NCBI GenBank assembly: GCA_023105745.1
Contig: JALGQZ010000013.1
Coordinates: forward strand, 1,647,501-1,711,500
Reading direction: 5' to 3'
DNA length: 64,000 bases
Source of the DNA: Austropuccinia psidii
Taxonomy: Eukaryota; Basidiomycota; Pucciniomycetes; Pucciniales; Sphaerophragmiaceae
The notes under the pieces are model-generated. The model searched no databases. It saw nothing but the letters and a program-made list of their open reading frames with translations, and was not told where the DNA came from. Positions 13,040 through 61,195 of the stretch are shown piece by piece. A program made the position numbers and the translations under genes. Each line of letters begins with the position of its first letter. The first letter of the stretch is position 1.

Positions 13040-15228
13040 TGTAAGGTTTGTCTATGAAACTCTTGATAATAGAAACAATATCAAGAGTACTATGACTGTC
13101 CTCAGTAGAAAAATATAATATAATGAAATATTATAACCACAAATTTAAATATAATTATTAAAAATAATTATATAAAAAAATAAATTTAATTATTATTATA
13201 ATAATATAATAATAAAAAAAAATATAATAATTATAATAAATTATAATTATTCTATTATTGTTATAGTCACTGAAAGTTATAACAATAAGAAGTGTAAAGC
13301 TCTTAATGAGACAATTACACGTGGAAAATAAGAATATTAACCACTTATAAATAATATAAATATTATTTATAAAAAGAATTAATCGCACACTGTGCAGAAA
13401 TAATTCTTTATAGAATAAAATTCTATATAAAAAAACTAATAATAGATAAAAAAAATATAGAACTTTAAAGAAAACTTACTTATAATATTTATTTAATACA
13501 ACAAGTTATAAAACAACAGTTATTATATTAAATAATAATTATAAGTTAAAAACACGCCTAAAATCAATAAATTTAAAGATAAAACAACTTTTTATAATAT
13601 AAATTATGATTAAAGAGTTTTTGAGAGGAATTTGTGGATTTTAAAAGATATTTAAGATGATAATTTTATATAATAAAATTTATTATAGATGATTACAACA
13701 ATAATCTGAATTCTATGACTTCAATTCTTTAATTTAATAAATAAAGAATAAAAATAACTTAAGAATTACTTTTAATAATAAGATTTTATATTTAATAAAA
13801 CTTTACCTGTTTAAATGTCTAATATGATTGGATTGATTATGAATTATGGACAAAAACAGTGATGAAAAGACTCTTTTTATGTCTACAGAGCAGCTCTCAT
13901 GATTCATAATGGATGTAGAGGGCGTGCTCAGATCAAAACTGAAAAACCATGCTTAAAAATTAAGTTCTTAACTTAAGGCAACTTATTTTTACTTCCAATT
14001 TAAAGTTACCAGTGTTATTCTTAACTCCAAGTAACTTTAATCCTCATTTAGTTTAATTATTTTAAGTTTTAATATAAAATAAGTTTATTTATATTAAAGT
14101 TCATCACATGAACAACATAAAATCAGAGTTTCAAGCAGAAATCTCTTAAACTGAATTTTTAATTAATTTTTAAAGAAATCATAATTTTCTTTAAGCTTAA
14201 TTAAAAAGTAATTTTCCAGGCTAATTACCCAGGAAACCTATTAATAAAAGATACTTAAAATTTAATTTATATATTGATAATATTAAATTCTAAGCTGTGT
14301 GAAATTTTCAAGCAAATCCATTAAGATTTGGATTTTTAATGAATTTTTGAAGTTATTACTATTTTTCCACGTAAAATAGCAATACACACAAAACCTTAAG
14401 TTTTGATAAGGTTTTGATGATTGAAACCTTAAAGTTTTAAGCTTATTTAAGCTTTTTAAGCTTGATTAAGCTTTGACAGTTCTTAAAACCTTGATTCCAA
14501 GCCTGCTTATTGGGATTTACCCTCTTGGCAGCTTGAAATTCCTGTCCAATTTAGGATAAAACCAGTTTAAACCTTAAGGTTGGATCAAAGTCTAATCTTA
14601 AAGTTTAAATAAGGTTGAAAATCCTCCAATACAGGTGGACAACCTTAATTGAATCCTTGCAGATCCAAAAAGTTGGGTACCCCAGCTCTATTTGGTCTTT
14701 TTCCTTTGTCCCACCTTTTTGCGTGGATTTTGCCCTTTTATTTATTTAAAGCCATACTATGGCCTTAAACCCTTTTAAATTGAGCTCACGCAGGATTTAC
14801 ATTCTGTATGGCAAATCCTTAGCCAATTCAGTAAATATACACCACACCTTAATTTTAACTAAAATTTTGGTAAAGTTGCATAAACCTTATGTAACTTTAA
14901 ATTTAAGCTTAATTAAGCTTAAATTTAACAATTTTAAAAAAATGTTAAAAAGTTACATTAGTACTGTAAGATTCTTAAATCTTCTAATAACACAAGAAAT
15001 AAGTGTTTTTGGGTATAACACCCTATGGGTGTACCCTAGGTTATTTTTGGTGTAGAATCCAAAAATGACATAATAATTATAACTTTGTTTATCCAAAAAA
15101 AAGTTATACTTATTTTTTATTATTTTTTATTTTAAATTCAACTAAAAAGTCTGTTTAAGACAAATTTAATTGTTTATAAAATCATTTGTGGCCTTATGGG
15201 TATGTTAAACATACCTCACAGGCTCACA
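13040..15228 (-). repeat. 3' LTR of element A
   Basis: 2189 bp, reading TGTGAGCC at its 5' end on the minus strand and CTTACA at its 3' end. Compared with 21850-24025 it carries a 13-bp insertion in an AT-rich stretch near 13150 and about five substitutions. It should supply the polyadenylation region of the transcript. The plus-strand open frame at 14759-15055 is antisense to the element, is repeated identically in the other LTR, and is probably chance. Confidence 0.95.
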
Positions 15229-15363: not shown

Positions 15364-18300
15364 TTATTGAGGAATTGGTCTTCTCTCATGTCTGAATCTT
15401 CTGAGAAACTTTTGGGAATCAGGTATCTTACTTTCTTCAACCCACTCATCTTCATGATGTGGATATCTGTACCTGACTAAGTATTCTCTTTCATTTTTAC
15501 CCCTAAGTCTTCTTTCTTTTAAGACTTTTAGTATTTTCTTTTCCTCACTTGGTTCAAGTGGGGGTACTTCTAAGGGTGTTTCATTTCTCAAAGGAAATAA
15601 TTCCTTATCACTTGATGTGTAATGCTTTACAAGACTGACGGGGAAAGTTGGGTGTTTGTTTCCTAACTCTCCTGACAGTTCTACTTGTACTGCATTTGTC
15701 CCATGGAGGGCTTTAATAATAAATGGTCCTGCAAAGGAATCTTTCAATTTCTTTGGACCTTTAATATTATTAAAGTTCAAGGTTGAAACTAGTATTAAGT
15801 CCCCTACTTTGAATTCTGGTGTCTTATGACTTTTATCCCATTTCTGCTTAGCATATTCAAAGGCATCATTCATGCTTTGATTTGCATGATGTCTCACTTT
15901 ATCAAGCAGCAGCTTAAAGCTTGAAGCAGTTGGATGAATGTCAACCAAATCTTTTTTCAAAGTATCAACTGGAAGTTTGGGGTTCCATCCTTTTTCCAAC
16001 ATTGCAGGAGTCTTGCCTGTTGAAGCATGGATGGAGGTCTTGTAGGCTAATTCCAATGCTGGTATAAGAGTACACCAATCATGGGTAAAGCCATCAGAAT
16101 CTTTAAACTCCAGGCCATAAGCACAAAATCTTCTGATCATGTCCTCAAGGGTTTGAATCATTCTTTCTGCCAGTCCATCTGTTTGTGGATGGTAGGCTGT
16201 TGAAAATGATAATTTTGTACCCAAAAGCTTATGTAGATTAGTCCATAAGGCTGATGTGAATTTTGGGTCTCTATCACTAATGATATTTTTAAAGAGACCA
16301 GTATGGGATATGACTCTGTTCCAAATCAGAAGAGCTGTATCCATAGCTGTGTCATCTTTATGGCATGGTAAAAAGATTGGTGTTTTGCTATATCTGTCCA
16401 CAATAACAAGACATGCATTGTAACTTTTATCACCTCCAGGTGGTAAAGCAGTTACCCAATCCATGTGAACCACTTCCCATGGGGTACTTGGTTCTTGAAT
16501 ATGGATCATTAAACCAAACCTTTTACCAGTAGCTTTATTGGCTTTCTGGCATCTATCACAACTATGACAGTACTCAATGACATCTTTTCTCCAAGATGGC
16601 CACCAGGCACATGTCTTAATTCTTTCCATTGTTCTGTCTTCAGACAGATGTCCAGAAGAAATGTTATCATGGCATTCTAGTAGTATTGTGTTAATCAACA
16701 TTCTACTACATAGGACCATGACACATGTGTGTTTAGATCTATGATATAGTATACCATCAAACAAATGAAATCTTCCATTATCATAAGATGTTTTCCAAAT
16801 ATCATCCAGAGAATTAGCCAAGGCTACATCTTTACAATCTTTGTCAAGTAGAGCAGTAAGAATATGACAATTCTTATCTTGCCTGTAGCTTTCTCTAACC
16901 TCTTCAAAGAATTCTGTTCCAACATCTGTGATATTGATTCCTTCAATTGGGATTTGAGGTTCTGCACTTGTAGGAACATAGGCAGGATTATCAGGTGTAT
17001 TGGGTAATGCCCATCTACTTAAGCCATCAGCATTCTTATGAATATTTCCAGCTTTATGTACTATGGTCATGTTGCCTCTATACTCCTGTATAGCAATCTT
17101 CCATCTTAACATGTGTCTGTTTGGAGTCTTCATGTTAAGAAGTGATTTTACTGCATTACAATCAGTAATTACTTCAAACACACTACCATCAAGATAATAA
17201 TGAAGTTTTTCCAGAGCCCAAACAAGGCAAAGGCACTCCATTTGGCTAGCTCCATATCTTGCCTCAGTAGGTTTAATTTGTCTTGAAATAAAACAAACTG
17301 GACCTTCATAAGGTTTGTCATTGACAATTTGAACTTGATGAAGAGCAGCTCCTAAACCATCACCACATGCATCAATATACAGCTTAAAAGGAAGTTTCCA
17401 GTCTGGCATCAATAATAATGGTGCATTGGTCAAGGCATACTTGATTTTATCATATGCTTGAATTCTCTCCTGTGTCATTTCAGAAACAGTCTGTTGATCA
17501 CAAATTCTGTATAATGATCTGGCATGGATTGGAAAATCTTTAAGGTGTTGCCTGTAATAACTGGCAAATCCTAAGAAAGACATCATCTCTTTTTTGTTCT
17601 GGGGCATTTGTTTCAGTAAAACTGCAGCCACTTTGTTTTTGTCAACACCAAGGCTTAGTCCTGATACTACATGTCCCAGAGCTTTCAACTCATGAAACCC
17701 AAAATTACATTTTTTAAGAGAAATTTTCATGTTCACTTGTAGAATTTTCTTAAGTACTAATGAAAGTCTCTCTAAATGTGATTGCCAGGTTTCTGAACAA
17801 ATGATAATGTCATCAATATAAATGATTAACCATCCCTCTGATAATTCATGTGGGAATATGGTATTCATCATTCTTTGATAATGAGAGGGTGCATTTTTAA
17901 TACCAAAAGGCATCCTCAAATATTCATAAATACCACAATGAGCTATTATTCTCAATAATTTCCTTGCATGAGGTGTTAAAACATTCTGATGGAAGCCTTT
18001 AAGAGCATCCATGGAAGTAATAAACTTTGCTTTGGATAATTGAGTCAAAGTCTCATGGATTCTAGGGATTGGATACCTGTCTGGAATAGTATAGGTGTTC
18101 AATGCCCTAAAATCCCCAACCATCCTTGACTTATCATTATGCCAAGTAATGATTACTGGAGTTGTGACTTCCACTTCCTCATTGTGTCCAACTTTTCTAA
18201 GAACTCCCAGTTTCATTAGTTCATGAATATGACTTTCTAATGCTTCTCTAGCCCTAGGGCTAGCTGGGTAAGCTGGTCTTCTTAATAGTGGGGGATAAGG

Positions 18301-21132
18301 TCTCTCCACGTTAAGCATGATATCCACTTCATGGCCTTTTATAGCCCCAAGTGGTTCATCATCAGAAGCAAAGGCTTTTTGAAATTGAAATAAAATTTCA
18401 ATAAGTTCTTCCTTCATTTCTGGTGTTAATTCAGGACTAATTTGTGCTTCACTTAATTGATCTGACACAAATTTTTCTTTATTAACATTTTTTACTTGTT
18501 GAATGACAGTAATTTCTTTTCTTTCTGGAGAAAAAGCAAATTTTTGCCTTTTATTTTCCCCTATAGTGAAATATCTGTCCTTATAATTATTAATATCAAT
18601 ACCATAGATATTGAGATAATCATTCCCAAGTATAAAGTGTTGTGAAGTACAATTATTCATAACAACAAATTCAGCTTTCAATCTCATACTTCCTGCAGGG
18701 TGAGGAAATATTATTGTAGCTTCAAATATACCCAAAGGATGCATATTCTGGCTAGCACTGCTGAATTTTACACCTTCAATTGGCATCAACTTGTCTTGCC
18801 AATTGGTATAAATTTTGTCAAGATAATCTTTCCCAACACAAGTGCAAAAAGCACCTGAGTCAAGATGTATCTTGGCTTCTGTGTTATTTATCACAATATT
18901 AGTGATACAAGATGACCCAGCTGTATAACCTTTACCTCTGGCAGGTTTGGTTTTTTGCATTCTGGCATCTTGCACATGTATGAGATCCATACATTCATCA
19001 CTGTACTGTGGTAAGTGAGTATGTACCTCAGTGACCTCAAAAGAAACATTAATATTCTCTATACTAAGTTCTTCTGATGTTTCTTCTTCTTCTGAAGGTT
19101 CAGAATCACTTTCATGTAAAGCTACATCAGTTTCTTTTGTGTCTTCCGCTTTTTCTACACTTATCTCATTGACTCTTGTCTTTTTTGGACAAGTGTTTGC
19201 TAAATGAGATGTGCTTCCACATTTATGACATTTCAAAGGAGGTCTGTCATGTGGTTTATTTGGTTTTGAAATTGGTTTCCCACTAGTCTTGTTGTCTATT
19301 GGGGGTTTATACCAATTTCTTCCAATTTTTGTTCTAGTAGTGATATCCTCCATAGCATTGATATAATCTTCTGTAGAGCAAGGCTCAATACATCTGCTTC
19401 TTATAGCATGCTCAAGGTCACCACCACACTTTCTTAATATCCTTTTATGTACCATTGGTTCAGACATATCAGGATGAAGGGCAGTTAATCTGTCCTTCTG
19501 TTTAAGAAACCAAGTCATGGGCCTGTCCCTCTCAATATTAAAAATGGCTTCCTCAAAAGAATTTTCCATTCCAAATCTCCAGGAATCATTTGCCCATTTG
19601 GAAATAACTTGTTCTTTCCACCAAGGCCAGGAATGTTTTCCATGGTCTTGTCTCATTTTATAATACCATTTCTTAGCTGATTTGGTAAATAATGAGTGTA
19701 ATCTGGCACTTATGTATTCATCTGGTATGTTAAAGTCTTCTTTGAACATATCAATTGTTTTCATAAATTCCATATGATTATATTCTCCTTCACCACTGAA
19801 GGTTGGCCATTCCTCTAATCTTGGAATGTATTTGAAATTGCAAGCAGTTTCCACATCATTACTTGAAATTGTATGATGTAAATCATTATTCAAGTTAAGA
19901 TCATTTCTGTCAAGAAATGGTGTGGATTGCCTTGGCAATTCATTTTTTAGTGATATATTATTAATACTTGACTGAATTTCTTCTTTCAAGTCAAGTCTTG
20001 CTTTATCACTTTTTTCCAATTGTTCTTGAAAAAGAGCTGCATTGTGGCCAGTTGAATTTTCCAAGTTTTGAACTTGTATTTTCAATTCTCTTAACTGTCC
20101 AGTTATAAAAGAAATTGAATTCTCATCTGGTTGATTGAGTAAGGTAACTTTATGCTCAAGTCTTTCACAAATTTGCGTCAAAGACAAAATATTTGCCTTA
20201 TTAAAATTTTCAAGGCCAATAATGGTCTTTTGTTGGTCTTTAACTTGTACTATCTCATTGCCCAGCTTTTGTTGGACATGATCAAATGCTTTAAATTTTG
20301 CCATAATTTCTTTATTACAAGATTCAAAGTAAGTTACAAGCTTTACAGGGTCTATTTCTTTGGAAAGGATTGGTTCAATCTTTCCTCCTCCTTGTTTTTG
20401 AATTCCATCAAAGTTCTTGCCATATTGAACACATTGTCCATGGCTGTCTTTTCCTTCTTTGGAATTCTGTAATTCTGAGGGTAGGGCTTGTTCCACTTGG
20501 GCTTTGCCTTTCCCTTTGCCTTTTGCTTGCCCTTCTGGTTGGTCTTTGGGGCTTGCTTGGGCTTGTTTGGCACTTGTTGAGGCGGATTTTTGCTGGTGGA
20601 TGCTTGAGGAGCTTCCACTTGGCTGTTGTCCTTGCCCTGGGCCAACTTCTTCTTCTGGTCTTCTGATAACATGCTTTGGTTTTTCAACCAAGCTTTTATC
20701 TGTTGGACTTGTCCTTTGACAGACATTGGTGTCCAACCCAATAGAAGATCTTCTGTCTTTTCTGGCCCCATGAACTTCTTCACTTGAAGATAAGAGTTCA
20801 TGGTGCCTATCCAAAGACTTGGAAGGAGTTCCCACTCTTGTTGTTTTGACGCCAGGAACCAGTTTTTCCATTGGGATTGATAAATTTCCACAGTTGCCTG
20901 TTGGAAATGGTTCAGGTCTAACAGCAATAGCAGTTATGTCAGCTTCTGGACTCTCAATAAGAGGTTCAAAGGTGCTGGCTAACCTTTGGGAACTGGTGGA
21001 AGTTCTGGCATCCTCCATTTGTGCCTCTCCTCTGGGAGGACATTCTTGCCTTTTGGATTTATGGCTGGAATGTCCTGGTCCAGATCCATTTGATTGGATG
21101 GAGTAGTTGCTTCCACTTCTAGTAGGAGTCAT
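15364..21132 (-). CDS. Gag-Pol polyprotein of element A, with C-terminal chromodomain
   Basis: A 1922-residue unbroken frame. Residues 1 to about 260 are Ser/Pro/Lys-rich and overlap the spliced gene in another frame. Residues 270-400 are Gln/Glu/Lys-rich and probably coiled coil. A capsid-like region begins near 438 ([13 protein letters not shown]). The zinc knuckle CX2CX4HX4C is at 635-648. The aspartic protease DSG has its Asp at 758. Reverse transcriptase follows with YIDD at 1105-1108, then RNase H with Asp 1254 in IDACGDG. Integrase has HHCC ligands ending in CHSCDRC near 1522-1528 and a DD35E triad at D1558, D1620 and E1656. A chromodomain-like tail occupies about 1866-1922 ([14 protein letters not shown]). 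This is the full set for a self-mobilising chromodomain Ty3/gypsy element; chromodomains can direct integration to modified chromatin. The ATG at 21132 lies inside a predicted intron of the overlapping gene. No frameshift between gag and pol is needed. Confidence 0.93.
20352..20917 (-). CDS. Exon Z of the spliced overlapping gene (element A)
   Basis: This exon reads in the +1 frame relative to Gag-Pol and ends at the TAG at 20352. It encodes about 188 residues. The first part is aromatic-rich and helix-like ([46 protein letters not shown]). A strongly basic stretch follows ([14 protein letters not shown]), then [18 protein letters not shown]. The spliced frame differs from copy B at about 19 of the first 112 residues, mostly conservatively (N/D, V/I, D/E). 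The Gag-Pol frame over the same bases differs at roughly 40 of 106. That asymmetry says the spliced frame is the constrained one. The basic tail suggests nucleic-acid binding. There is no ATG at the exon start, so it must be joined to upstream exons. I do not recognise a named domain. Confidence 0.75.
20984..21118 (-). CDS. Exon Y of the spliced overlapping gene (element A)
   Basis: 135 nt. The 3' splice site is CCTACTAG before 21118. The 5' splice site is AAAG|GTTAGC at 20984/20983. The following 66-nt intron has a GCTGACAT branch-like site and ends GCTGTTAG at 20918. The frame contains the first in-frame ATG of the spliced product (21089, MDLDQD), then [16 protein letters not shown], joining to DLNHFQQ in exon Z. 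Exon Y is open in A, B and C. The ATG is a possible start giving about 223 residues; otherwise translation begins upstream of exon X. Confidence 0.7.
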
Positions 21133-21180
21133 TTCACGTCAATTTTAATAAAAATTAGAGTAAAAGTGGATTGAATTCAC

Positions 21181-21297
21181 CTGCAGGACCTTTAAAGGGC
21201 TCTTTGGTTATTAAACCCCTTGGTGCTGGGCTGGTTTGAATTTCAATACTGGACTCTGAGGCTTCAGAGTCTGAAGAACTTTCTCTGATGGAAGACA
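21181..21297 (-). CDS. Exon X of the spliced overlapping gene (element A)
   Basis: 117 nt preceded by the splice-acceptor-like TTTTCTCTAG and followed by CAG|GTGAAT. The next intron is 62 nt (21180-21119) with a CTCTAAT branch-like site. It encodes an acidic, Ser-rich peptide (SSIRESSSDSEASESS, then PFKGPA). Between A and B I count about 13 base differences, ten of them at third codon positions, and all amino-acid changes after the first codon are conservative. The first codon is split by the upstream junction (N|TG in A, N|CA in B, N|TT in C), so an upstream exon ending in one coding base is expected. I could not identify it. Confidence 0.65.
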
Positions 21298-21821
21298 CTA
21301 GAGAAAATTTAAAAATATAAGTTATTTTATCAAATAATAAAAATAACTTATAAACTCAACTTATTGAATAAAGTTGTTTTTATGTAATTTATGGCAAATT
21401 ACGTCAAAAATAAAGAAAAATGTCTAAGATAAAAAGAAAAAATGTTTTTAGTAAAGATTTTTATTTTTAAAGATTTTTTATTTGATTTATTATTTTCTTG
21501 AAAGAAATAATAATTATGCAATTAACAAGTTAATTAATCAAAATTATATTATTATTCACTTTATACTAGAATAACTCAAAGAATAAATTTCAAGTCTGTG
21601 ATGTGAAAAAGCCACTAGTTAGACAAAAGAAATTTATTCCAAGTCACTCAATAGTATATTGTTTCAAACAATATTCTTAAGAAAAAATAACTTTATTAAT
21701 ATTATAAAGATTATTTATAAGGGATAAGTCCCAAAAAAGCCAATATTAAGACAAATATGGCAATTTTACGTCAAAAAACAGTAAAATAAGGTCTAGAATA
21801 TGATTTATGTCCCAAAAATTG

Positions 21822-21849: not shown

Positions 21850-24025
21850 TGTAAGGTTTGTCTATGAAACTCTTGATAATAGTAACAATATCAAGAGTAC
21901 TATGACTGTCCTCAGTAGAAAAATATAATATAATGAAATATTATAACCACAAATTTAAATATAATTATATAAAAAAATAAATTTAATTATTATTATAATA
22001 ATATAATAATAAAAAAAAATATAATAATTATAATAAATTATAATTATTCTATTATTGTTATAGTCACTGACAGTTATAACAATAAGAAGTGTAAAGCTCT
22101 TAATGAGACAATTACACGTGGAAAATAAGAATATTAACCACTTATAAATAATATAAATATTATTTATAAAAAGAATTAATCGCACACTGTGCAGAAATAA
22201 TTCTTTATAGAATAAAATTCTATATAAAAAAACTAATAATAGATAAAAAAAATATAGAACTTTAAAGAAAACTTACTTATAATATTTATTTAATACAACA
22301 AGTTATAAAACAACAGTTATTATATTAAATAATAATTATAAGTTAAAAACACGCCTAAAATCAATAAATTTAAAGATAAAACAACTTTTTATAATATAAA
22401 TTATGATTAAAGAGTTTTTGAGAGGAATTTGTGGATTTTAAAAGATATTTAAGATGATAATTTTATATAATAAAATTTATTATAGATGATTACAACAATA
22501 ATCTGAATTCTATGACTTCAATTCTTTAATTTAATAAATAAAGAATAAAAATAACTTAAGAATTACTTTTAATAATAAGATTTTATATTTAATAAAACTT
22601 TACCTGTTTAAATGTCTAATATGATTGTATTGATTATGAATTATGGACAAAAACAGTGATGAAAAGACTCTTTTTATGTCTACAGAGCAGCTCTCATGAT
22701 TCATAATGGATGTAGAGGGCGTGCTCAGATCAAAACTGAAAAACCATGCTTAAAAATTAAGTTCTTAACTTAAGGCAACTTATTTTTACTTCCAATTTAA
22801 AGTTACCAGTGTTATTCTTAACTCCAAGTAACTTTAATCCTCATTTAGTTTAATTATTTTAAGTTTTAATATAAAATAAGTTTATTTATATTAAAGTTCA
22901 TCACATGAACAACATAAAATCAGAGTCTCAAGCAGAAATCTCTTAAACTGAATTTTTAATTAATTTTTAAAGAAATCATAATTTTCTTTAAGCTTAATTA
23001 AAAAGTAATTTTCCAGGCTAATTACCCAGGAAACCTATTAATAAAAGATACTTAAAATTTAATTTATATATTGATAATATTAAATTCTAAGCTGTGTGAA
23101 ATTTTCAAGCAAATCCATTAAGATTTGGATTTTTAATGAATTTTTGAAGTTATTACTATTTTTCCACGTAAAATAGCAATACACACAAAACCTTAAGTTT
23201 TGATAAGGTTTTGATGATTGAAACCTTAAAGCTTTAAGCTTATTTAAGCTTTTTAAGCTTGATTAAGCTTTGACAGTTCTTAAAACCTTGATTCCAAGCC
23301 TGCTTATTGGGATTTACCCTCTTGGCAGCTTGAAATTCCTGTCCAATTTAGGATAAAACCAGTTTAAACCTTAAGGTTGGATCAAAGTCTAATCTTAAAG
23401 TTTAAATAAGGTTGAAAATCCTCCAATACAGGTGGACAACCTTAATTGAATCCTTGCAGATCCAAAAAGTTGGGTACCCCAGCTCTATTTGGTCTTTTTC
23501 CTTTGTCCCACCTTTTTGCGTGGATTTTGCCCTTTTATTTATTTAAAGCCATACTATGGCCTTAAACCCTTTTAAATTGAGCTCACGCAGGATTTACATT
23601 CTGTATGGCAAATCCTTAGCCAATTCAGTAAATATACACCACACCTTAATTTTAACTAAAATTTTGGTAAAGTTGCATAAACCTTATGTAACTTTAAATT
23701 TAAGCTTAATTAAGCTTAAATTTAACAATTTTAAAAAAATGTTAAAAAGTTACATTAGTACTGTAAGATTCTTAAATCTTCTAATAACACAAGAAATAAG
23801 TGTTTTTGGGTATAACACCCTATGGGTGTACCCTAGGTTATTTTTGGTGTAGAATCCAAAAATGACATAATAATTATAACTTTGTTTATCCAAAAAAAAG
23901 TTATACTTATTTTTTATTATTTTTTATTTTAAATTCAACTAAAAAGTCTGTTTAAGACAAATTTAATTGTTTATAAAATCATTTGTGGCCTTATGGGTAT
24001 GTTAAACATACCTCACAGGCTCACA
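21850..24025 (-). repeat. 5' LTR of element A
   Basis: 2176 bp with the same ends as the left copy. It should hold the promoter. On the minus strand it contains an ATG-initiated 34-codon frame (starting MNHESCSVDIKR, about 22700) that runs into CAG|GTAAAG at 22604/22603, a strong 5' splice-site match. Joining this to the acceptor before 21297 would remove 1306 nt including the primer site, but the coding phase does not fit exon X, so it may be an untranslated leader exon or chance. Confidence 0.9.
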
Positions 24026-31824: not shown

Positions 31825-34267
31825 TGTCAGGTTTGTCTATGAAAATCTTGATAATAGTAACAATATCAAGAGTACTATGCCTGTCATCAGTAGAAAAATA
31901 TGATATAATAAAATATTATAACCAAAAATTTAAATATAATTATTGAAAATAATTATATAAAAAATAAATTTAACCATTATTATATAAAATAATAATACAT
32001 AAAATATAATAATCATAAGAAATTATGATTATTCTATTATTGTTATAGTCACTGACAGTTATAACAATAAGAAGTGTAAAGGTCTTAATGCGACAATTAA
32101 ACATGGAAAATATAAATATTCAACCACTTATAAATGATATTTAAATATTATTTTTAAAACACACACTGTGCAGAAATAATTCTTATAGAAATATTCTATA
32201 TAAAAACAACTAATAATAGATAAAAAAAGATATAGAATTTTAGGGAAAAGTTACTTATAATGTTTATTTAATACAACAAGTCAAAACACAACAGTTATTA
32301 TATTAGATAATAATTATAAGTTAAAAACACGCCAAAAATCAATATTTTAAAAGATAAAACAACTTTTTATAATAAAAAATATGATTAAAGAGTTTTTGAG
32401 AGGAGTTTGTGGATTCTAAAAGATATTTTAAAGACAATAATTTCATAAAATAAAATGTATTATAGGTGATTACAACAATAATCTAATTTCTATGATTTTA
32501 ATTCTTTAATTTAAGATCTATAAATAATAAAATACTTAAGAATTACTTTAATAATAAGATTTTATATATAACAAAACTTTACCTGTTTAAATGTCTAATA
32601 TAATTGGGTTTATAATTGATTATGGACAAAAACAGTGATGAAAGGACTCTTTTTATGTCTACAGAGCAGCTGTCATGATTCATAATAGATATAGTGCGCA
32701 TGCTCAGGTCAAAACTGAAAAACCATGCTTAAAATAAGGTTCTTAACTTAATATAACTTAATTTTAATTCCAATTTAAATTTACCAGTGTTATTCTTAAC
32801 TCCAAGTAAGTTTAATCCTCATTTAAGTTAATTGTATTAGGTTTTAATATAAAATAAGTTTATTTATATTAAAGTTAATCACATGAACAGCTTAAAAATA
32901 GCGTTTCAAGCAGAAATATCTTAAACTCAATTTTTAATTAATTTTTAAAGAAATCTTAATTTTCTTTAAGTATAATTAAAAGAGTAAATTTCCAGACTAA
33001 TTACCCAGGAGATATGTTTATAAGAGATACTTAAAATTTTATTTAAACATAGATAATATTAAATTGTAAGCTGTGTGAAAATTTCAAGCCAATTCATTAA
33101 GAATCGGATTTTTAATTAAGTTTTGAAGTTATTGCTATTTTTCCACATAAAATAGCAATACACACTAAACCTTAGCTTTTGATAAGGTTTTAATGCTTTC
33201 AACCTTAAAGATTTAAGCTTATTTAAGCTTTGACAGGTCTCAAAACTTTAATTTCAAGCCTGCAGATTGGGATTTACCCTTTGGCAGCTTCAAATTCCTG
33301 TCCAAATTAGGTTAAAACCAGTTTAAACTTGAAGGTTGGATCAAAGTTTAATCTTAAAACTTAGATAAGGTTGAAAATCCTCCAATACAGGTGGAAAACC
33401 TTAATTTAATCATTGCAGATCCAAAAAATTGGGTACCCCAGCTCTATTTGGTCTTTTTCCTTTGTCCCACCTTTTTGTGTGGATTTTGCCCTTTTATTTA
33501 TTTAAAGCCATACCATGGCTTTAAACCCTTTTAAATTGAGCTCACACAGGATTTACATTCTGTATGGCAAATCCTTAGTGAATTCAGTAAATATACACCA
33601 CACCTCAATTTTAACTAAAATTTTGGTAAGTTTGCATTAATCTTACGCAACTTTAAATTTAAGCTTATTTAAGCTTAAATTTAACAATTTTAAAATTGCA
33701 GATCCAAAAAGTTGGGTACCCAAGCTCTGTTTGGTCTTTTTCCTTTGTCCCACCTTTTTGCACGGGTTTTGCCCTTTTATTTATTTAAAGCCATACTATG
33801 GCCTTAAACCCTTTTAAATTGAGCTCACGCAGGGTTTACATTCTGTATGGCAGATCCTCAGCCAATTCAGTAAACTTACACAACACCTCAATTTTAACTA
33901 AAATTTGGTAAGTTTGCATAAACCTTATGCAGCTTTAAATTTAAGCTTATTTAGGCTTAAATTTAAAAAAATTAAAATAAATTTTAAAAAAGTTACATTA
34001 GTACTGTGAGATTCTTAACTCTTCCAATAACATAAGAAATAAGCCCTTTTTGGTATAAAACCCTATGGGTGTACCCTAGGTCATTTTTGGTGTAGAGTCC
34101 AAAAATGACATAATATTTATAACTTTGCTTATCCAAGAAAAATTTATACTTATTTTTCTTATTTTTTATTTTAAATTCAATTGAAAAGTATTTTGAAGAC
34201 TAAATAAACTGTATATAAACTCATTTGAGGCCTTATGGGTATGTTATAAATACCTCACAGGCTCACA
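31825..34267 (-). repeat. 3' LTR of element B, with internal tandem duplication
   Basis: 2443 bp, about 260 bp longer than the partner LTR. The extra length is a direct duplication: the block starting TTGCAGATCC at 33413 starts again at 33696, a period of 283 bp. The outer end reads TGTCAGG instead of the family TGTAAGG. Confidence 0.88.
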
Positions 34268-37400: not shown

Positions 37401-40169
37401 GAAGCAAAGGCTTCCCTGTATTGAAATAAAATTTCAATAAGTTCTTCCTTCATTTCTAGTGTAAATTCAGCATTAATTTGTGCTTTAATTAACTGATCTG
37501 ACACAAATTTCTCTTTATTAACATTTTTTACTTGTCTAATGACAGTTATTTCTCTTTTTTCTGGAGGAGAAACAAATTTTTGCCTTTTATTTTCTCCAAT
37601 AGTGAAATACCTGTCTTTATGATTATTAATATCAATACCATAAATATTGAGATAATCATTTTCAAGTAGAAAGTGTTGTGAAGTACAATTATTCATAACA
37701 ACAAATTCAACTTTTAATCTGATACTTCCTGTAGGATGGGAGAATATCATTGCTGCTTCAAATATACCCAAAGGGTGCATATTTTGGCTGGCACTGCTGA
37801 ATTTTATACCTTCAATTGGCATTAACTTGTCTTGCCAATTGGTATAAATCTTGTCAAGATAATCTTTTCCCACACAAGTACGAAAGGCACCTGAGTCAAG
37901 ATGTATCTTAGCTTGTCTGTTGTTTATCACAATCTTAGTGATACAAGATTCTCCAGCTGTATAACCTTTACCTCTGGCTGGTTTGGTTTTCTGCATTTTG
38001 GCAACTTGCACATGTATGAGATCCATACATTCATCACTTTACTGTGGCAAGTGAGTATGTACTTCTGTGACCTCAAAGGAAACATTAATATTTTGTATAC
38101 TAAGTTCATCTAGTAATTCCTCTTCTTCAGAAGGCTCAGAATCACTTTCATGTACAGAGACATCTTTTGTTTCTTTTGTGTCATCTTTTTCAACTTCTAT
38201 CTAATTGATTCTTGCCCTTTTGGGACAAGTATTAGCCAGATGAGATGTACTTCCACATTTTTGACATTTCAAGGGAGCTTTGTCATGTGGCTTATTGGGT
38301 TTGGAATTGGTTTCCCACTGGTCTTGTTGTCCATTGGGGGTTTATACCAATTTCTACCAATTTTTGTTCTAGTAGTGATTTCCTCCATAGCATTGATATG
38401 ATCTTCTGTAGATAAAGGCTCAATAAATATGCTTCTTATAGCATGATCAAGGTCACCACCACACTTTCTTAATTTCCTTTTATGTACCAATGTTTCAGAA
38501 ATATCAGGATAAAGGGCATTTAATCTGTACTTTTGTTTACGAAACAAATACATGGGCCTGTCCCTCTCAATATAAAAATGGCTTCTTCAAATTAATTCTC
38601 CATTTTAAATCTCCTGGAATCATTTTTCCATTTGGAAATAATCTGTTCTTTCCACCAAGGCCAAGAATATTAACCACGGTATTGTCTCATTTTGTAATAC
38701 CATTAGTTTGCTGATTTGGTAAACAATGAGTGTAATCTGGCACTTATGTATTCATCTGGTATATTAAAGTCTTCTTTAAACATATCAATTGTTTTCATAA
38801 ATTCCATATGATTATATTCTCCTTCACCACTAAAGGTTGGCCATTCCTCTAATCTTGGAATGTATTCAAAATTGCAAGCAGTTTCTACTTCTGCATTACT
38901 TGAAATTGGATGATGTAAGTCATTATTCAAGTTTAGCACATTTCAGTCATGAATTGGTGTAGACTGTTTTGGCAATTCATTTTTCAGTGATATATTGCTC
39001 ATACTTGATTGAATATCTTCTTTCAATTCAAGTCTTGCTTTATCACTTTTTTCCAATTGTTCTTGGAAAAGAGCTGCATTGTGCCTACTTGACTTTTCCA
39101 AGTTTTAAACTTGGATTATTCATTCTTTTAACTGTCTAGTTAGAAAAGAACTAGAATTGTCATCAGGTTGATTGATTAAGGTAAATTTAGACTCAATTCT
39201 TGCACAAATTTGTGTCAAAGACAAAATAATGTCTTTATTAATATTTTCAAGGCCGAGCATGGTCTTTCGTGACTCTTTTACTTGTAATATCTCATTACAC
39301 AGCGTTTGTTGGATATACTCCAATGTTTTAAGCTTTGTTATAGTTTCTTTATTACGAGTTTCAATTTGGTTTACAAGCTGTAAAAGATCTACTTCTTTGG
39401 AAAAGATTGGCTAAATATTTCCTCTTCCTTGTTTTTGAATTCCATCAGAGTTATTTCCATATTGAACACATTGTCGATGGCTGACATCTCTTTCTTGGGA
39501 ATACTGTAATTCTGTGGGTAAGGCTTGTTCCATTTGGGCTTTGCCTTTCGCTTGGCCTTTTGCTTGCCCTTCTGAATGGTCTTTGAGGTTTGCTTGGGCT
39601 TGTTGGGAACTCTTTGAGGCGGATTTTTACTTGTGGAGGCTTGGGGAGCTTCCACTGGGCTGTTTTCCTGGCCTTGGGCCAACTTCTTCTTCTCGTCCTC
39701 TGATAAAATGCTTTGGTTTTTCAACCAAGCTTTTATCTGGTAGAGTTTTCCTTTGCAAGACATGGGTGTCCAACCCTTCAGAAGTTCCTCTGTCTTTATC
39801 GGCCCCATGAATTTCTTCACTTGAAGATATGAGTTCATGGTGCCTATCCAAAGACTTGGGAGAAGCTCCCACTCTTGCTGTTTTGCTGCCATAAACCAGT
39901 TTGTGTACTGAGACTGGTATATCTCTATTGTTTCCTGTTGAAAGTGATCCAGGTCTAACAGCAATAGCAGTTATGTCAGCTTCTGGACTCTCAATAAGAG
40001 TTTCAAAGTTGCTGGCTAACCTTTGGGAACTGGTGGAAGTTCTGGAATCCTCCATTTGTGCCTCTCCTCTGGGCTGAAATTCTTGTCTTTTAGATTTATG
40101 ACTTGAATATCCTGGTCCAGATCCATTTGATTGGATGGAGTAGTTACTTCCACTTCTAGTAGGAGTCAT
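34404..40169 (-). pseudogene. Gag-Pol of element B, decayed
   Basis: Pieces in element order are: N-terminus 40169-39627 (stop TAA at 39627-39629); coiled-coil part near 39120-39323; capsid start 38939-38703; capsid end and zinc knuckle 38553-38200 ([14 protein letters not shown] kept); protease and linker 38026-37316 (DSG kept); RT and RNase H 37045-35711; integrase 35549-34785; chromodomain 34784-34404. The RT catalytic YIDD reads YIDY, losing one catalytic Asp. There are at least eight stops or frameshifts. It cannot make a working polyprotein. Confidence 0.9.
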
Positions 40170-40334
40170 TTCATGTCAATATAAAGAAATTAAGACTAAG
40201 AAATGGATTGAATTCACCTGCTGGACCTTTAAAGGGTTCTTTGGTAAGTAAACCCCTTGGTACTGGGCTAGTTTGAATTTCAATACTAGACTCTGAGGCT
40301 TCAGATTCTGAAGAGCTTTCTCTGATGGATGATG
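39389..40334 (-). CDS. Spliced overlapping gene in element B (exons X, Y, Z)
   Basis: Predicted exons are 40334-40218, 40155-40021 and 39954-39389, with introns of 62 and 66 nt. All five lengths equal those of A and C. The reading is open throughout, even though the surrounding Gag-Pol frame is broken. The stop that ends the N-terminal Gag-Pol piece at 39627 arises from an AGC to AGT change, which is silent (Ser) in this frame. The product resembles that of A (DLDHFQQETIEIYQSQ at the start of exon Z, SFPKK at the end). Whether this old copy is still expressed is unknown. Confidence 0.65.
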
Positions 40335-40878: not shown

Positions 40879-43061
40879 TGTAAGGTTTTTCTATGAAACT
40901 TTCAATAATAGTAACAATATCAAGAGTAATATGACTGTCCTCAGTAGAAAAATATAATATAATAAAATATTATAACCACAAATTTAAATATAATTATTAA
41001 AAATAATTGTATAAAAAATTCTTTTAATTATTATTATATAAAATAATAATAAAAATATAATAATTATACTAAATTATAATTATTCTATTATTGTTATAGT
41101 CACTGACAATTATAACAATAAGAAGTGTAAAGCTCTTAATGTAACAATTACACGTGGAAAATATAAATAATTAACCACTTATAAGTAATATATAAATATT
41201 ATTTATAAAAGAATTAAAACACACACTGTGAAGAAATAATTCTTATAGAAAAATTCTATATAAAAAAACTAATAATAGATAAAAAAGATATAGAATTTTA
41301 AAGAAAACTTACTTTAATATTTATTTAATAAAACAAGTCAAACAACAACAGTTATTATATTAAATAATAATTATAAGTTAAAAACACACCAAAAATAAAT
41401 ACTTTAAAAGATAAAACAACTTTTTATAATAAAAAAAAATGATTAAAGAGTTTTTGAGGGGAATTTGAGGATTTGAAAGATATTTCAAAGACAACAATTT
41501 TATAAAATAAAATATATTACAGGTGATTACAACAATAATCTAATTTATATGATTTCAATTCGTTAATTGAAGATTTATAAAGAATAAAATACTTAAGAAG
41601 TACTTTAAAAATGAGATTTTATATATAACAGAACTTTACCTGTTTAAATGTCTAATATAATTGGGCTGATAATTGATGATGGACAAAAACAGTGATCAAA
41701 AGACTCTTTTTATGTCTACAGAGCAGCTGTAATGATTCATAATAGATATAGAGGGCATTCTCAGGTCAAAGCTGAAAAACAATGCTTAAAATAAGGTTCT
41801 TAACTTAATATAACTTATTTTTACTTCCAATTTAAATTTACCAGTGTTATTCTTAACTCCAAGTAGCTTTAATCCTCATGTAAGTTAATTATATTAGGTT
41901 TTTAATATAAAATAAGTTTATTTATATTAAATTTCATCACATGAACAGCTTAAAAATAGAGTTTCAAGCAGAAACCTCTTAAAATCAATTGTTAATTAAT
42001 TTTTAAAGAAATTGTAAGTTTCTTTAAGTATAATTAAAAGAGTAAATTTCCGGACTAATTACCCAGGACATCTATTTTTAAGAAATACTTAAAATTCAAT
42101 TTTCATTTAGATCATATTAAATTGAAAGCTGTGTGACAAATTCAAGAGAATCCATTAAGAATTGGATTTTAAATGAATTTTTGAAGTTATTGCTGTTTTT
42201 CCATTTAAAATTGCAATGCACACTAAACCTTAACTTTTGATAAGGTTTTAATGCTTGTAACATTAATGTTTGAAGCTTATTTAAGCTGTTTAAGCTTACT
42301 AAAGCTTTGGCAGGTTTCAAAGCTTTAATTTCAAGCCTGCATATTGGGATTTACCCTTTGGCAGCTTGAAATTTCTGTCCACATTGGGTTAAAAACAGTT
42401 TAAACTTTAAGGTTGGATCAAATTCTAATATTAGAGCTTAAATAAGGTTGAAAATTCTCGAATACAGGTGGGCAACCTTAGTTGAATCATTGGAGATCCA
42501 AAGAGTTGGGTACCCCAGCTCTGTTTGGTCTTTTTGCGTTGTACCACCTTTTTGGGTGGATTTTGCGCTGTTATTTATTTAAAGCCATACTATGGCCTTA
42601 AACCCTTTAAATTGAAGTCACACAGGATTTACATTCTGTATGGCAGATCCTCAGCCAATTCAGTAACTATACACAACACCTCAATTTTAAATCAAATTTT
42701 GTTAAGTTTGCATAAACCTTATGCAACTTTAAATTTAAGCTTATTTAAGCTTAAATTTAAATTTTTTAAAAAAAATGTTAAAAATTTTACACTGGTACTG
42801 TGAGATTTTTAAATCTTCCAATAACATAAGAAATAAGCCCTTTTGGGTATAACACCCTATAGGTGTACCCTAGGTCATTTTTGGTTTAGAATCCAAAAAT
42901 GACATAATCTTTATAACTTTGTTTGTCCAAAAAAAGTTATACTTATTTTTTATTTTTTTTTATTTTAAATTCAATTGAAAAGTCTGTTGAAGACCAAATC
43001 AACTGTATATAAAGTCATTTCAGGCCTTATGGGTATGCTATAAATACTTCACAGGGTCACA
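40879..43061 (-). repeat. 5' LTR of element B
   Basis: 2183 bp with the family ends. It contains the LTR donor-like CAG|GTAAAG, but the 34-codon frame that runs into it in A is interrupted here by TGA. This argues that the frame is not coding. Its outer (5') end faces element C. Confidence 0.88.
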
Positions 43062-43066
43062 AAGAG
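43062..43066. other. Shared 5-bp junction between elements B and C
   Basis: AAGAG separates the 5' end of B from the 5' end of C. The outer flanks of the B+C block are AAAAG at 31820-31824 and AAAAG at 52279-52283. The middle copy differs from these by one base. Confidence 0.85.
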
Positions 43067-44988: not shown

Positions 44989-45934
44989 TTTCTTCCATCA
45001 GAAAAAATTCTTCAGACTCTGAAAACTCAGAGTCCAGTATTGAAATTCAAACCAGTCCAGCACCAAGGGGTTTGATAACCAAAGAGCCCTTTAAAGGTCC
45101 TGCAGGTGAATTCAATTCAATTTTACTCTATTTTTTATTAAAATTGATGTGAGATGACTCCTACTAGAAGTGGAAGTAACTACTCCATCCAATCAAATGG
45201 ATCTGGACCAGGACATTCCAGCCACAAATCCAAAAGGCAAGAATGTCCTCCCTGAGGAGAGGCACAAATGGAGGATGCCAGAACTTCCACCAGTTCCCAA
45301 AGGTTAGCCAGCACCTTTGAACCTCTTCTTGAGAGTCCAGAAGCTGACACAACTGCTATTGCTGTTAGACCTGAACCATTTCCAACAGGCAGCTGTGGAA
45401 ATTTATCAATCCCAATGGAAAAACTGGTTCCTGGCGTCAAAACAACAAGAGTGGGAACTCCTTCCAAGTCTTTGGATAGGCACCATGAAGTCTTATCTTC
45501 AAGTGAAGAAGCTCATGGGGCCAGAAAAGACAGAAGATCTTCTGTTGGGTTGGACACCCATGTCTGTCAAAGGACAAGTCCAACAGATAAAAGCTTGGTT
45601 AAAAAACCAAAGCATGTTATCAGAGGACCAGAAGAAGAAATTGGCTCAAGGCAAGGACAACAGCCCAGTGCAAGCTCCTCAAGCATCCACCAGCAAAAAT
45701 CCGCCTTAACCAGTGCCAAACAAGCCCAAGAAAGCCCCAAAAACCAACCAGAAGGGCAAGCAGAAGGCAAAGGGAAAGGCAAAGCCAAAGTGGAACAAGC
45801 CTTACCCGCAGAATTACAGAATTCCAAAGAAGGAAAAAACAGCCATGGACAATGTGTTCAATATGGCAAGAACTTTGATGGAATTCAAAAACAAGGAGGA
45901 GGAAATATTGAACCAATCCTTTCCAAAGAAGTAG
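44989..45934 (+). pseudogene. Spliced overlapping gene in element C, one stop
   Basis: Exons X 44989-45105, Y 45168-45302 and Z 45369-45934, with introns 45106-45167 and 45303-45368. All have the same lengths as in A. The branch-like CTCTAAT of intron 1 is CTCTATT here. Exon Z has one in-frame stop, CAA to TAA at 45707-45709, before the basic tail. In exon Y the change CCA to CCT at 45251-45253 is silent in this frame but makes the TGA that ends the long frame. Confidence 0.7.
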
Positions 45935-57051: not shown

Positions 57052-59996
57052 TCAATGCTTCGATTTCCTGATTCTGAACTTCATTGAACTATCTTTTCCT
57101 ATGAAATAAAGCCGTTTGATGTGACTTGCTGCAAATTTTTTTTTAAGCTTAGTTGCATTTAATTTTTCAAGCTCATCCAGTCCATTATTAAATGGATTTA
57201 TAGATGTATAAGGTCCATTCCAATGGTTTTTGGAGAGTAAGTCCCACTGTGACTGAAGTGTTTTATTATAAACTAATACCAAGTCCCCTTCTTCGAGTGG
57301 ATTTTTAAATCTATGCTCCATCTTTTTGATCAAATATTTAATTTATTTTCATCTTCAATCTCTTAATTTCCCTTCTGCTGCTAATCTTGTTTTCTCTTTT
57401 TCCACAATCTGTTGGGTTCTTGATTCAAATAGTTCTTCCCTTGTTGATATTATATTTCATTGAATGGCTGGATATGTGTGTGCCTCAATATTAATTGGGA
57501 AAACAGCTTGCTGACCAAATTGAAGCTCAAATGGTGAGAATCCTGTTGTTCTTTTTGTTGAAATTAAATCTGCCAAGATCACAATTGGTAATATTCTTTC
57601 CATTTGGATGCATTTTGACCACACATCTAACAAGATAATCTTCCAATTTATTATGGCCTCTTTCAAAAATTCCTTGTGATTCTGGGTAGTAAGGTGTAGC
57701 CATTCTGATTATTGATTCTGATCCGTTGACTGCTTCTTGTAGTTATTGTCCAAATTATGCTCCTTCATCAACTGTCACTTCTTTTGGAGCTCCAAAACTA
57801 CAAAACCACTCAGATGTAAGCAATTGGGAGACTTATTTTGCACTTAGACTTTTTAATCACACAGTTCCTGGCCATCCTGAAAACTCATCTCTTGCTACAA
57901 CTAAGAGTTTCCAACTTCCTTCCTTAATTTGAACTTCATCCATGTTGACTTTTTCAAATAAAGTAAATTTTACAGATATTGTTTCTTTTTTTTGTTTCAT
58001 ATGACTCCTTTTTTGACATTCTTGACATGATTTAACCAATTTATTGACTATATTTGTCCTTCCTTCCCACCAATATCTTTTCTTGATTCTCCTGTATGTT
58101 TCATTTCTTCCTCTATGCAACACTTCTTCATCCATTTGCTTTAGTATCTGTTTCTGATATTTTTCATTATATACAGCTATTTTTTGATTTTTGTGACTTA
58201 TTGTTTTCAGATTCCCTGATTCTAAATAGATATTTACTAATCTTATTTTAATTTTTTTGAATTATTCTTCTCCAATGCGTTTTGGCTTTTGCAAAGTATT
58301 CAAATATTCCTACATATGTTTTCCAAATGCTTCCTGTTTTATGGGAATGTCAATTTTTCTTTGATTTATTTATAATTTTTCCACTTTTCTTCTATTTACT
58401 TCTTTAGGCCAAATCCTGGATGAGGTTTTATCCAATCTTCCTCTTTATCAAAATCATCCCTTTCACTTTCTTCTTCATCATCTACATTTGGTCTTCTTGA
58501 TAACCCATCTGGAATAGGAAATGCTTTCCCTTGTTTGTGTAAAGTATTAAATGAAAACAGCTGAATGAATGCAACCCATCTTGTCATTGGTGCATTTGGT
58601 GAGCAAGATTTGTTGATCATTTCTCTTAAAGCTTTAACATGTACTTGAAGTTCAAAGTGTTGCCACCATAATATTTTTTGAAGTTTTTTGGGTATTCTTC
58701 CTGCACCACACCATTCTAATTTTGGCCAATAGTATTTGTATTCTAGTCTGGAAAATTTTACTTCTTCATATAGTACTGGTCTATCCTTTCCATTCTCATC
58801 CTCTTGCATAAGAACTGCACCAGCTGCAATATAACAGGAATTTATTGCTAATTTTATTTTCCCTGACCCTTTATCATAGTTCAATGTGTTCAAAGTAATT
58901 TCTTCTTCTACTATCTTTGTGAGCTTTATAAAAGCTAATTCACATTGTTCATCCCATTTCCACAATCCATCCTCCCTTTTCAATCTTCTCAATGGTGCTG
59001 CAACATGTGAAAAGTCCTTGATAAATATTCTGACATATGCACATTGTCCTAAGAATTCTCTAGCTTCCTTCTTTATTGTTGGTCTAGGCCAGATTTATAT
59101 CTTGTTTATCTTCTGTTTTGAAATCTTTCCTCCTCCCAAAGTTACAACATTCCCCACAGTATCAAGTGCTGCAATACAAAATTCAAATTTTGATCCTGAA
59201 ATTGTGAGTACTGCCTCTTCCATCCTGAAAAGTATTCTTTCTAATAATACTGAGCATTCCGAAACAATTCTTCTTATGAGAAGATTCTCCTTCAATGGTT
59301 TGTGCTGATATGTTTACCTGGGTCCTTTGATTCCTCAATCATCTATAAATATGCCAAGGTTCTCTGGTATTTGATCCTGAGGTAACCAAGTCATTTTTTC
59401 TTGATAAAATGCCACAGAGTTTGGTTCTGCTTGAGGTAGTATGGTAAGACAAACTCCTCCAACCAGTGTTTCAAATTTTGTAAGTGGTCTTGTAGTAATA
59501 TCCAGTCCTCTTTCATCATATCCTCTCATAATATCTCCTAAAAAATAGCATGGGCTTCTTGAAAAAGATCCTACAAGCTCATTAACATTTGGTTGCAATT
59601 TTTCATTTTTCATTGTTACTTTATCAAGTTGTTGAATGTCATGAAATATTCTAGGTTTCCATTGGGCTTTTCCAGATAAAATACTGGGCTGCTATAGCTT
59701 TATGTTGATTGTTTATAGAGTCCTGTATGTATTCCTTCTCTGAATAGTTCAAGAAATTGAGGTAAAATTGATTTTTGTATTGGTATTGGTTTCTTTTTCC
59801 ATGGTTCATGTGTTATAACTGGTATTTTAAAAGTTTTTCCATAAGAATGTTTTAGTACACCTCTTTCTTCATCACAAAAGGCTTTACCCTCTTTGATTAG
59901 TAATATGACATTTTTTGATAAGTTCATCTCTTCTTCTGATAAAAATACAGATGGTCCAAGATTTATCTTGAAATTCCTTCTTCTGTAACTTTTCAT
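57052..59996 (-). pseudogene. Decayed pol of a second, distinct Ty3/gypsy-like lineage
   Basis: Pieces in element order on the minus strand are: N-terminal RT region 59996-59700 (FFSEEEM-like start, HEPWKKKPIPI); RT core 59613-59335 (GDIMRGYDERGLDI, LGIFIDD); connection near 59295-59095; RNase H 58992-58396 (AINSCYIAAGAVL, ending DGLSRR); integrase zinc domain and core 58135-57857 (CQECQKRSH); later integrase 57666-57457 (TTGFSPFELQFG); C-terminal part 57333-57052 (GDLVLVYN). The RT signature and spacing differ from A, B and C, so this is another lineage. Many stops and frameshifts. I found no LTRs for it and no chromodomain. Confidence 0.75.
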
Positions 59997-60199
59997 TGAT
60001 TAACAAATAGGGATGGGTTAGGTGATAAAGGTGTTTCATATGAACCTCTTTTTAATTAAGGTCTATCTAAAGGTGGATTCATATGTAAAGGCATAGCTTC
60101 ATTGACTGGTCTAACCCTCTTTAGTGCTGAATTCTATATGGCTGCCTTTGCTTGAGCTTCCATGATTATTTGCCTGGTTAAAAGTATCAATTCATAATA
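59997..60199 (-). other. Possible upstream remnant of the second gypsy pol
   Basis: Short AT-rich stretch between the RT N-terminal piece and the decanucleotide array. No motif could be read; the gag of this lineage, if ever present, has been lost to the array or to decay. Confidence 0.3.
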
Positions 60200-61195
60200 T
60201 TATTTTTATTTATTTTTATTTATTTTTATTTATTTTTATTTATTTTTATTTGTTTTTATTTATTTTTATTTATTTTTATTTATTTTTATTTATTTTTATT
60301 TATTTTTATTTATTTTTATTTATTTTTATTTATTTTTATTTATATTTATTTATTTTTATTTATTTTTATTTATTTTTATTTATTTTTATTTATTTTTATT
60401 TATTTTTATTTATTTTTATTTATTTTTATTTATTTTTATTTATTTTTATTTATTTCTATTTATTTTTATTTATTTTTATTTATTTTTATTTATTTTTATT
60501 TATTTTTATTTATTTTTATTTATTTTTATTTATTTTTATTTATTTTTATTTATTTTTATTTATTTTTATTTATTTTTATTTATTTTTATTTATTTTTATT
60601 TATTTTTATTTATTTTTATTTATTTTTATTCATTTTTATTTATTTTTATTTATTTTTATTTATTTTTATTTATTTTTATTTGTTTTCATTTATTTTGATT
60701 TATTTTTATTTATTTATTTATTTCTTTTTATTTCTTTTTATTTATTTTTCATTATTTTTATTTATTTTTATTTATTTTTATTTATTTTTATTTATTTTTA
60801 TTTATTTTTATTTATATTTATTTATTTATATTGATTTATTTTTATTTATTTTTATTTATTTCTATACACTTCTATTTATTTTTATTTTTTCTTATTTATT
60901 TTTATTGATTTTTATTGATTTTTCTTGATTTTTATTAATTTTTATTTATTTTTATTTATTTTTATTCATTTTTATTTCTTTTTATTTCTTTTTATTTATT
61001 TTTGATTATTTTTATTTACTATTATTTATTTTTATTTATTTGTATTAATTTTTATTTATGTTTATTCATTTTTATTGATTTTTACTTATTTTTATTTATT
61101 ATTATTTATTTTTGATTTATTTTTACTTATTTTGATTTATTTGTGTTTATTTGTATTTATTCTTATTTATCATTATTTAATAATATTTATTATCA
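60200..61195. repeat. Decanucleotide satellite (TATTTTTATT)n
   Basis: About 1 kb of the 10-bp unit tatttttatt. It is nearly perfect from 60203 to about 60680 (only a few single-base variants) and increasingly diverged to about 61195. The long open frame across it only translates the repeat (IFIYFYLFLF) and is not a gene. Confidence 0.95.

Follow-up and report, generated by a model that had tools for sequence, protein, structure and literature searches.

Can a Ty3/gypsy retrotransposon of a rust fungus carry, over the start of its gag region, a second gene that is read in another frame and assembled by splicing? The question is raised by a 64,000-nucleotide (nt) stretch of the Austropuccinia psidii genome (assembly GCA_023105745.1, contig JALGQZ010000013.1, positions 1,647,501 to 1,711,500; hereafter the window, numbered from its first base). 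Its minus strand holds element A, which encodes Gag-Pol in one open reading frame (ORF) of 1922 amino acids (aa) with reverse transcriptase (RT), RNase H and integrase (15364..21132). The usual description of fungal Ty3/gypsy elements has gag and pol, and Boty is one of few exceptions. A reading of the letters without database searches (the sequence-only reading) had drawn a spliced, out-of-frame gene in element A and in its two relatives in the window, element B on the minus strand and the damaged element C on the plus strand. The analyses reported here support that proposal, with purifying selection in the frame of the second gene, acc, in three subfamilies, and with the place and phase of its first intron kept in five families and those of its second intron in two of them. 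Judged by sequence and conservation, acc is very probably a spliced gene under selection.

The coding parts of acc in element A, all on the minus strand, are exon X (21181..21297, 117 nt), exon Y (20984..21118, 135 nt) and exon Z (20352..20917, 566 nt). Exon X follows the acceptor TTTTCTCTAG|TG and is read in the acc frame from 21295. Intron 1 (21119..21180, 62 nt, GTGAAT...CTACTAG, phase 1) holds the Gag start codon (21130..21132), which is removed when the intron is spliced. The Gag frame is open through intron 2 (20918..20983, 66 nt, GTTAGC...TGTTAG), and both introns contain stops in the acc frame. Exons Y and Z double as Gag codons, acc being +1 to Gag, and Gag first positions are acc third positions. 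The exon and intron lengths and GT-AG borders of the sequence-only reading were reproduced, with the joined frame open to a TAG at 20354-20352. Its claim of equal lengths also held, as X, intron 1, Y, intron 2 and Z are all gap-free against A in element B (X, 40218..40334; Y, 40021..40155; segment in the place of Z, 39389..39954; minus strand) and element C (X, 44989..45105; Y, 45168..45302; segment in the place of Z, 45369..45934; plus strand). As had been stated, A and B have the joined frame open throughout, and C has one stop in it. Exon X starts AG|CA in B and AG|TT in C, and exon Y of C has a single stop in the Gag frame. Two parts of the earlier model need correction. The branch-like CTCTAAT that it placed in intron 1 is not conserved in B or C; by eye, all three elements have TTGAC/TTGAT close to the acceptor. 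The three-exon model also misses a 5' exon, since X has no in-frame ATG and begins at a splice acceptor.

In exon Z, acc had been described as about twice as well conserved as Gag, and this was confirmed: residue identity between A and B is 154/187 in the acc frame versus 123/187 in the Gag frame, or about half the changes. The Gag-frame peptide is of low complexity, with G, S, P, Q, N, K and E making up 0.56 to 0.60 of its residues. Base differences in Z fall at the three acc codon positions as 18:14:50 between A and B (P = 6.5e-7 versus uniform) and as 5:3:15 between A and C (P = 0.0046). The third-position excess that had been noted in exon X is present, but it amounts to 9 of 12 differences between A and B rather than about ten of thirteen.

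Selection was assessed further in copies of family 1, the family of A, B and C. The genome (84 contigs, 1,015,390,075 bases) was searched with B, the best 40 of 4,793 candidates were scored, and 20 were fetched from among the higher-ranking of the 39 places besides B. These were aligned with A, B, C and the copy L017 (24 rows); variant counts omit L017 and cover 23 sequences. Variants found in at least two copies are distributed over acc positions as 3:3:14 in X (P = 0.0024), 6:11:5 in Y and 36:32:65 in Z (P = 6.6e-4). Singletons, which are presumably mostly changes made after insertion, are spread 82:93:99 in Z (P = 0.44) and 14:16:18 in Y. The acc frame is open to its end stop in 5 of the 20 fetched copies (L045, L047, L052, L055 and L056), which is what old copies should show. 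A genome scan for the conserved acc C terminus, by a degenerate pattern, matched 6,487 forward and 6,462 reverse places, which should not be read as intact genes, and the reversed-pattern control gave zero.

Further families were found by searching twenty 10-kb genome tiles with acc and Gag-Pol of A. Three tiles contained acc matches (L016 at two places, L017 and L024), and acc was found in three of five tile extensions (L031, L032 and L034, but not L033 or L035). L016, L031 and L032 form family 2, and L034 and L024 form family 3. Identity to acc of A is 34% in family 2 (L016) and 46% in family 3 (L034), compared to 25% and 32% in the Gag frame over the overlap; for Z alone, families 1 to 3 are 40 to 48% identical in acc versus 23 to 28% in the Gag frame. 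Differences again favor acc third positions in the pairs L016-L031 (15:17:36, P = 0.0027) and L034-L024 (13:23:40, P = 6.4e-4), while the L016-L032 pair has only 14 differences (3:4:7, P = 0.4). There are stops in acc of L031 and L024. Near the Gag start of L032, both frames are broken by an insert of ~460 nt (L032:100-558) that contains a direct repeat. Family 5 (L015, minus strand) was recognized by its layout; a 337-codon joined frame is kept in seven of nine copies, and the overlap is free of Gag-frame stops in six of nine. Its genome matches are 98 to 100% identical over the whole query (best 40 of 1,751 candidates), so the openness of its frames partly reflects youth.

Intron 1 lies at the same place, in phase 1, in all five families, with lengths of 62 nt (GTGAAT), 65 nt (GTAAGT), 88 nt (GTGAGC), 66 nt (GTGTGT) and 81 nt (GTAAAT) in families 1 to 5, respectively, and the Gag ATG starts 11 to 20 nt upstream of its acceptor in each. 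Intron 2 is 66 nt with GT-AG borders in family 1 and 72 nt with GC-AG borders in family 3, and it splits the codons K|D in both. Frame openness was tested by fixing the codons of one frame and permuting synonymous codons in 20,000 shuffles. In exon Z of family 1, acc was stop-free in 1.2% of the shuffles when Gag was fixed, and Gag was stop-free in 0 of 20,000 when acc was fixed. With acc fixed, Gag is also unexpectedly open in families 2, 3 and 5 (P < 5e-5, P = 0.0008 and P < 5e-5). Both frames of the overlap are under purifying selection, as in an overprinted pair, acc by its variants and Gag by its openness with acc fixed. Leaving function aside, we hold with good confidence that a Ty3/gypsy clade has this second gene together with its splice logic. 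In this clade the coding exons of acc would occupy the leader and run over the first ~780 nt of gag. Unspliced RNA would retain intron 1 with the Gag ATG and give Gag-Pol. Splicing would take out the Gag ATG, along with the frame-breaking intron 2 in family 1, and lead to a protein of ~250 to 340 aa, which in families 1 to 3 is predicted to be basic, with aromatics in its middle and a basic tail.

How would translation of acc begin? Exon X of A and of each other family's representative opens with AG|TG (acc phase N|TG), and the peptides that follow differ. Because of this shared beginning, we lean slightly toward a start codon completed by a leader splice, in which an upstream exon ending in A, joined to the TG of X, would make ATG. 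A candidate far 5' splice site in the long terminal repeat (LTR) of A (22271..22282, minus strand, TTATAA|GTAAGT) would give A|TG TCT when joined to X, and its A|GTAAGT is also present in B and C. A candidate near site in the leader (21342..21354, minus strand, TTTATAA|GTTATT), 50 nt upstream of X, is a weak donor. As candidate donors ending in A, family 2 offers TTATAA|GTGAGG, family 4 A|GTAAGT and family 5 A|GTGAGT, and both family 1 and family 3 have A|GTTATT in their leaders; no credible alignment pairing the candidate donor sites was found. The leaders of families 1 and 3 share GTTATTTTT (A from 21347 onward, and L034), 50 and 139 nt upstream of X, and it recurs in the family 5 leader after a T. 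A 34-codon ORF in the LTR (22704-22603) ends at CAG|GTAAAG, perhaps the end of a noncoding first exon. As a first coding exon this ORF was rejected, as it joins in phase only to an acceptor inside X and, by eye, contains a TATA-like stretch, so it may not be transcribed.

Several observations weigh against the proposed gene, its start codon or its function. Exon X has no third-position skew between A and C (2:2:3), its singletons avoid third positions (17:19:5, P = 0.015), which is unexplained, and the A-B differences in Y side with the Gag frame (acc positions 2:6:2). When Gag is fixed, an open acc frame is no more than a modest surprise (P = 0.012, 0.077, 0.036 and 0.023 in families 1, 2, 3 and 5). 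In a resampling variant of the openness test, the third-frame control was also low (8 stops versus 19 expected, P = 0.0004); this variant is therefore not a fair null, and the permutation was relied on instead. Neither family 2 nor family 5 has an intron at the site of intron 2; both read through it. Family 4 is a single copy with a stop in Y that ends at the tile edge just past the intron 2 site, and acc of family 5 has no sequence homology to families 1 to 3 detectable by hhalign, while its shared variants are too few to test for selection. At the 5' end, exon X of A offers no in-frame ATG upstream of acc, the TG at the start of X is missing in B, C, L039 and L049 among the 24 family 1 rows, and the candidate donors vary from family to family. 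The good family 1 donor CAG|GTAAAG (exon end 22604), past the TATA-like stretch, would give no A|TG. Lastly, acc has no convincing relative in Pfam, NCBIfam or the PDB. The best Pfam match (SF3a60_bindingd, E = 0.055, one of four members) and the best NCBIfam match (E = 0.34, far under the cut-off) were taken as chance, the PDB sequence search gave nothing at E ≤ 1, and a search of IMG/VR contigs gave no result. AlphaFold models of the Z part alone consist of helices only, with a mean predicted local distance difference test (pLDDT) score of 54.5 and 55.6, and the best Foldseek match to this low-confidence model had an E value of 1.9. With no domain relative and a poor fold model, the function of acc rests on analogy.

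The acc products of families 1 to 3, counted from an assumed first Met, have 253 to 281 aa and an isoelectric point of 9.3 to 9.7. Their N part has a net charge of -1 to -7, the middle has 9 to 11 aromatics per 90 residues, and the C part, with a net charge of +8 to +15, is a basic segment of the nucleic-acid-binding kind by composition alone. We tentatively suggest that acc may regulate the unspliced RNA of its own element (export, stability or packaging), a role that suits its layout because the acc mRNA would be the spliced form and the element needs the unspliced form. The closest working model is CERV of Cer1, a Ty3/gypsy element of C. elegans, which is made from a spliced mRNA and is required for the export of unspliced RNA (PMC10309623). 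As described there, CERV is, like acc, a novel protein of a Ty3/gypsy spliced mRNA that begins in the gag region, its splice sites are retained in full-length RNA, one of its exons is in a frame of its own, and it has no obvious homology beyond nematodes (PMC10309623). Unlike acc, CERV shares the Gag frame and 5' terminus in exons 1 to 3 and has its C-terminal half after pol (PMC10309623), whereas acc shares no frame with Gag, has the Gag ATG spliced out and is confined to the leader and 5' gag. The function of CERV has been demonstrated, and that of acc is proposed by analogy. The genes of HIV-1 Rev and HTLV-1 Rex, unlike acc, are not known to overlap the Gag N terminus. Rev and Rex resemble the proposed acc as regulators of retroelements that need unspliced RNA for Gag-Pol (PMC10309623, PMC3434621).

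A real and spliced acc might instead serve particle assembly or copy-number control, as a p22-like Gag inhibitor or a nucleic-acid chaperone, rather than export. We consider this somewhat unlikely, although the basic acc tail is in its favor; the Ty1 restriction factor p22/p18 is not known to be spliced. Like acc, p22/p18 is a second gag-region product of a fungal LTR element, and the GAG region of Ty1 yields a trans-acting inhibitor (PMC4599808, PMC8458377). However, p22 shares the Gag frame and is made from an internal transcript, whereas acc uses a different frame and is linked to the loss of the Gag start by splicing. The sequence does not separate these roles from export. The full picture, in which a rust Ty3/gypsy clade (about thirteen thousand places in one genome) would carry an overprinted regulator whose AUG is assembled by splicing and whose splicing takes away the Gag AUG, with one splice decision making Gag-Pol and regulator mutually exclusive in a retrovirus-like early/late switch, strikes us as plausible but somewhat short of probable. 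If it is true, splicing would be the switch between two products of one DNA stretch, and a conserved spliced accessory gene in the other gag frame would show retrovirus-style regulation in fungal retrotransposons. It would also offer a handle on how one element group filled a gigabase rust genome, and its thousands of copies would be a large natural data set on overprinting, with dead copies as a neutral control. Additional ORFs (aORFs), such as that of Boty of Botrytis, are extra conserved genes of LTR elements, in fungi too, and are described as having no known function (PMC7264820). In comparison, acc lies out of frame over gag and needs splicing. Searches of the open-licence PMC literature, judged by titles and abstract openings, turned up no out-of-frame spliced gene in a fungal Ty3/gypsy gag. 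Automated gene models of Austropuccinia psidii presumably contain pieces of both frames.

Translation of acc without the X-Y-Z mRNA, for example by leaky scanning past the Gag ATG to an ATG in Y with intron 2 alone removed, or by a frameshift into or from Gag, is improbable. Exon Y of family 1 does have an in-frame acc ATG (MDLDQD...) ~40 nt past the Gag ATG, and X has no ATG of its own, but X has its own coding signal, the join is in phase in five families, and the frame is restored only by the splice junction. By eye, no shared slippery heptamer was seen at the acc 3' end, and a -1 frameshift at the acc stop was rejected on this ground. A rival that concerns the Gag frame of the overlap, and that a Gag N terminus downstream of 20352 would fit, is more improbable still. 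It draws on the better conservation of acc in Z and on the low complexity of the Gag-frame peptide; against it, ~5 to 8 Gag stops are expected with acc fixed and 0 are present (families 1, 2, 3 and 5; P ≤ 0.0008), the Gag ATG keeps its place just before the intron 1 acceptor in five families, and residue identity between A and B in Y favors the Gag frame (40/44 versus 36/44 in acc).

That the acc frame arose by accident from Gag coding, with biased composition, few stops and splice sites by chance, is extremely improbable. With Gag fixed, ~2 to 3 acc stops are expected, which makes an open stretch no great rarity, and many old copies have acc stops (the full open frame is missing in 15 of the 20 fetched). 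Constraint on Gag only, however, predicts that changes collect at Gag third positions, the pattern of the Gag-Pol segments after Z, whereas in three families the changes in the overlap concentrate at Gag first positions, which are acc third positions. In addition, acc is conserved better than Gag between subfamilies, and X lies outside Gag, yet is open and third-position biased (A-B and shared variants). A chance ORF was rejected on the codon-position and cross-family tests, and a composition artifact of the Gag frame on the opposite pattern in Gag-Pol after Z.

Element A has the paired LTRs of Ty3/gypsy (Metaviridae) elements, 2.2 kb each and 99.2% identical (5' LTR, 21850..24025; 3' LTR, 13040..15228; minus strand), and the Ty3/gypsy domain order RT, RNase H, integrase within a single Gag-Pol. 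Pfam matches in Gag-Pol are RVT_1 (1000-1155), RT_RNaseH (1244-1351), H2C2 (1479-1533) and rve (1551-1649); Chromo, the C-terminal mark of the Ty3/gypsy chromovirus subgroup, has a subthreshold match at 1869-1914 (20.3 bits versus a cut-off of 25.1), and the zinc knuckle is below the Pfam cut-off. The stretch TGGGGGCC... comes after the LTR. The genome is described as just over 1 Gb with 33.8% GC and >90% transposable elements, mostly Gypsy (PMC8063080). When it was searched with the A stretch, the best 40 of 3,373 candidates reached either the full 1707 bits (28, A included) or 1702 bits (12), so A is a member of a young copy group.

The 5' LTRs of B (minus) and C (plus) meet head to head at 43061-43066, with 4 bases between the aligned ends, and the 3' LTR of B contains an internal duplication (33281-33863) with a start-to-start spacing of 283 nt. 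Outside the window, L030 holds a 311-codon ORF resembling Ty1/copia Gag by eye (L030:1670-2605), which directly precedes a Ty3 Gag-Pol that shares ~73% identity with the one in A; the two overlap in different frames, and the arrangement is a nested insertion or a chimera. Another Ty3-like pol remnant, ~24 to 25% identical to Gag-Pol of A, lies at 57626-59658 of the window, and from 60035 to 61000 and beyond there is a 10-bp tandem array whose long open frames are a product of the repeat.
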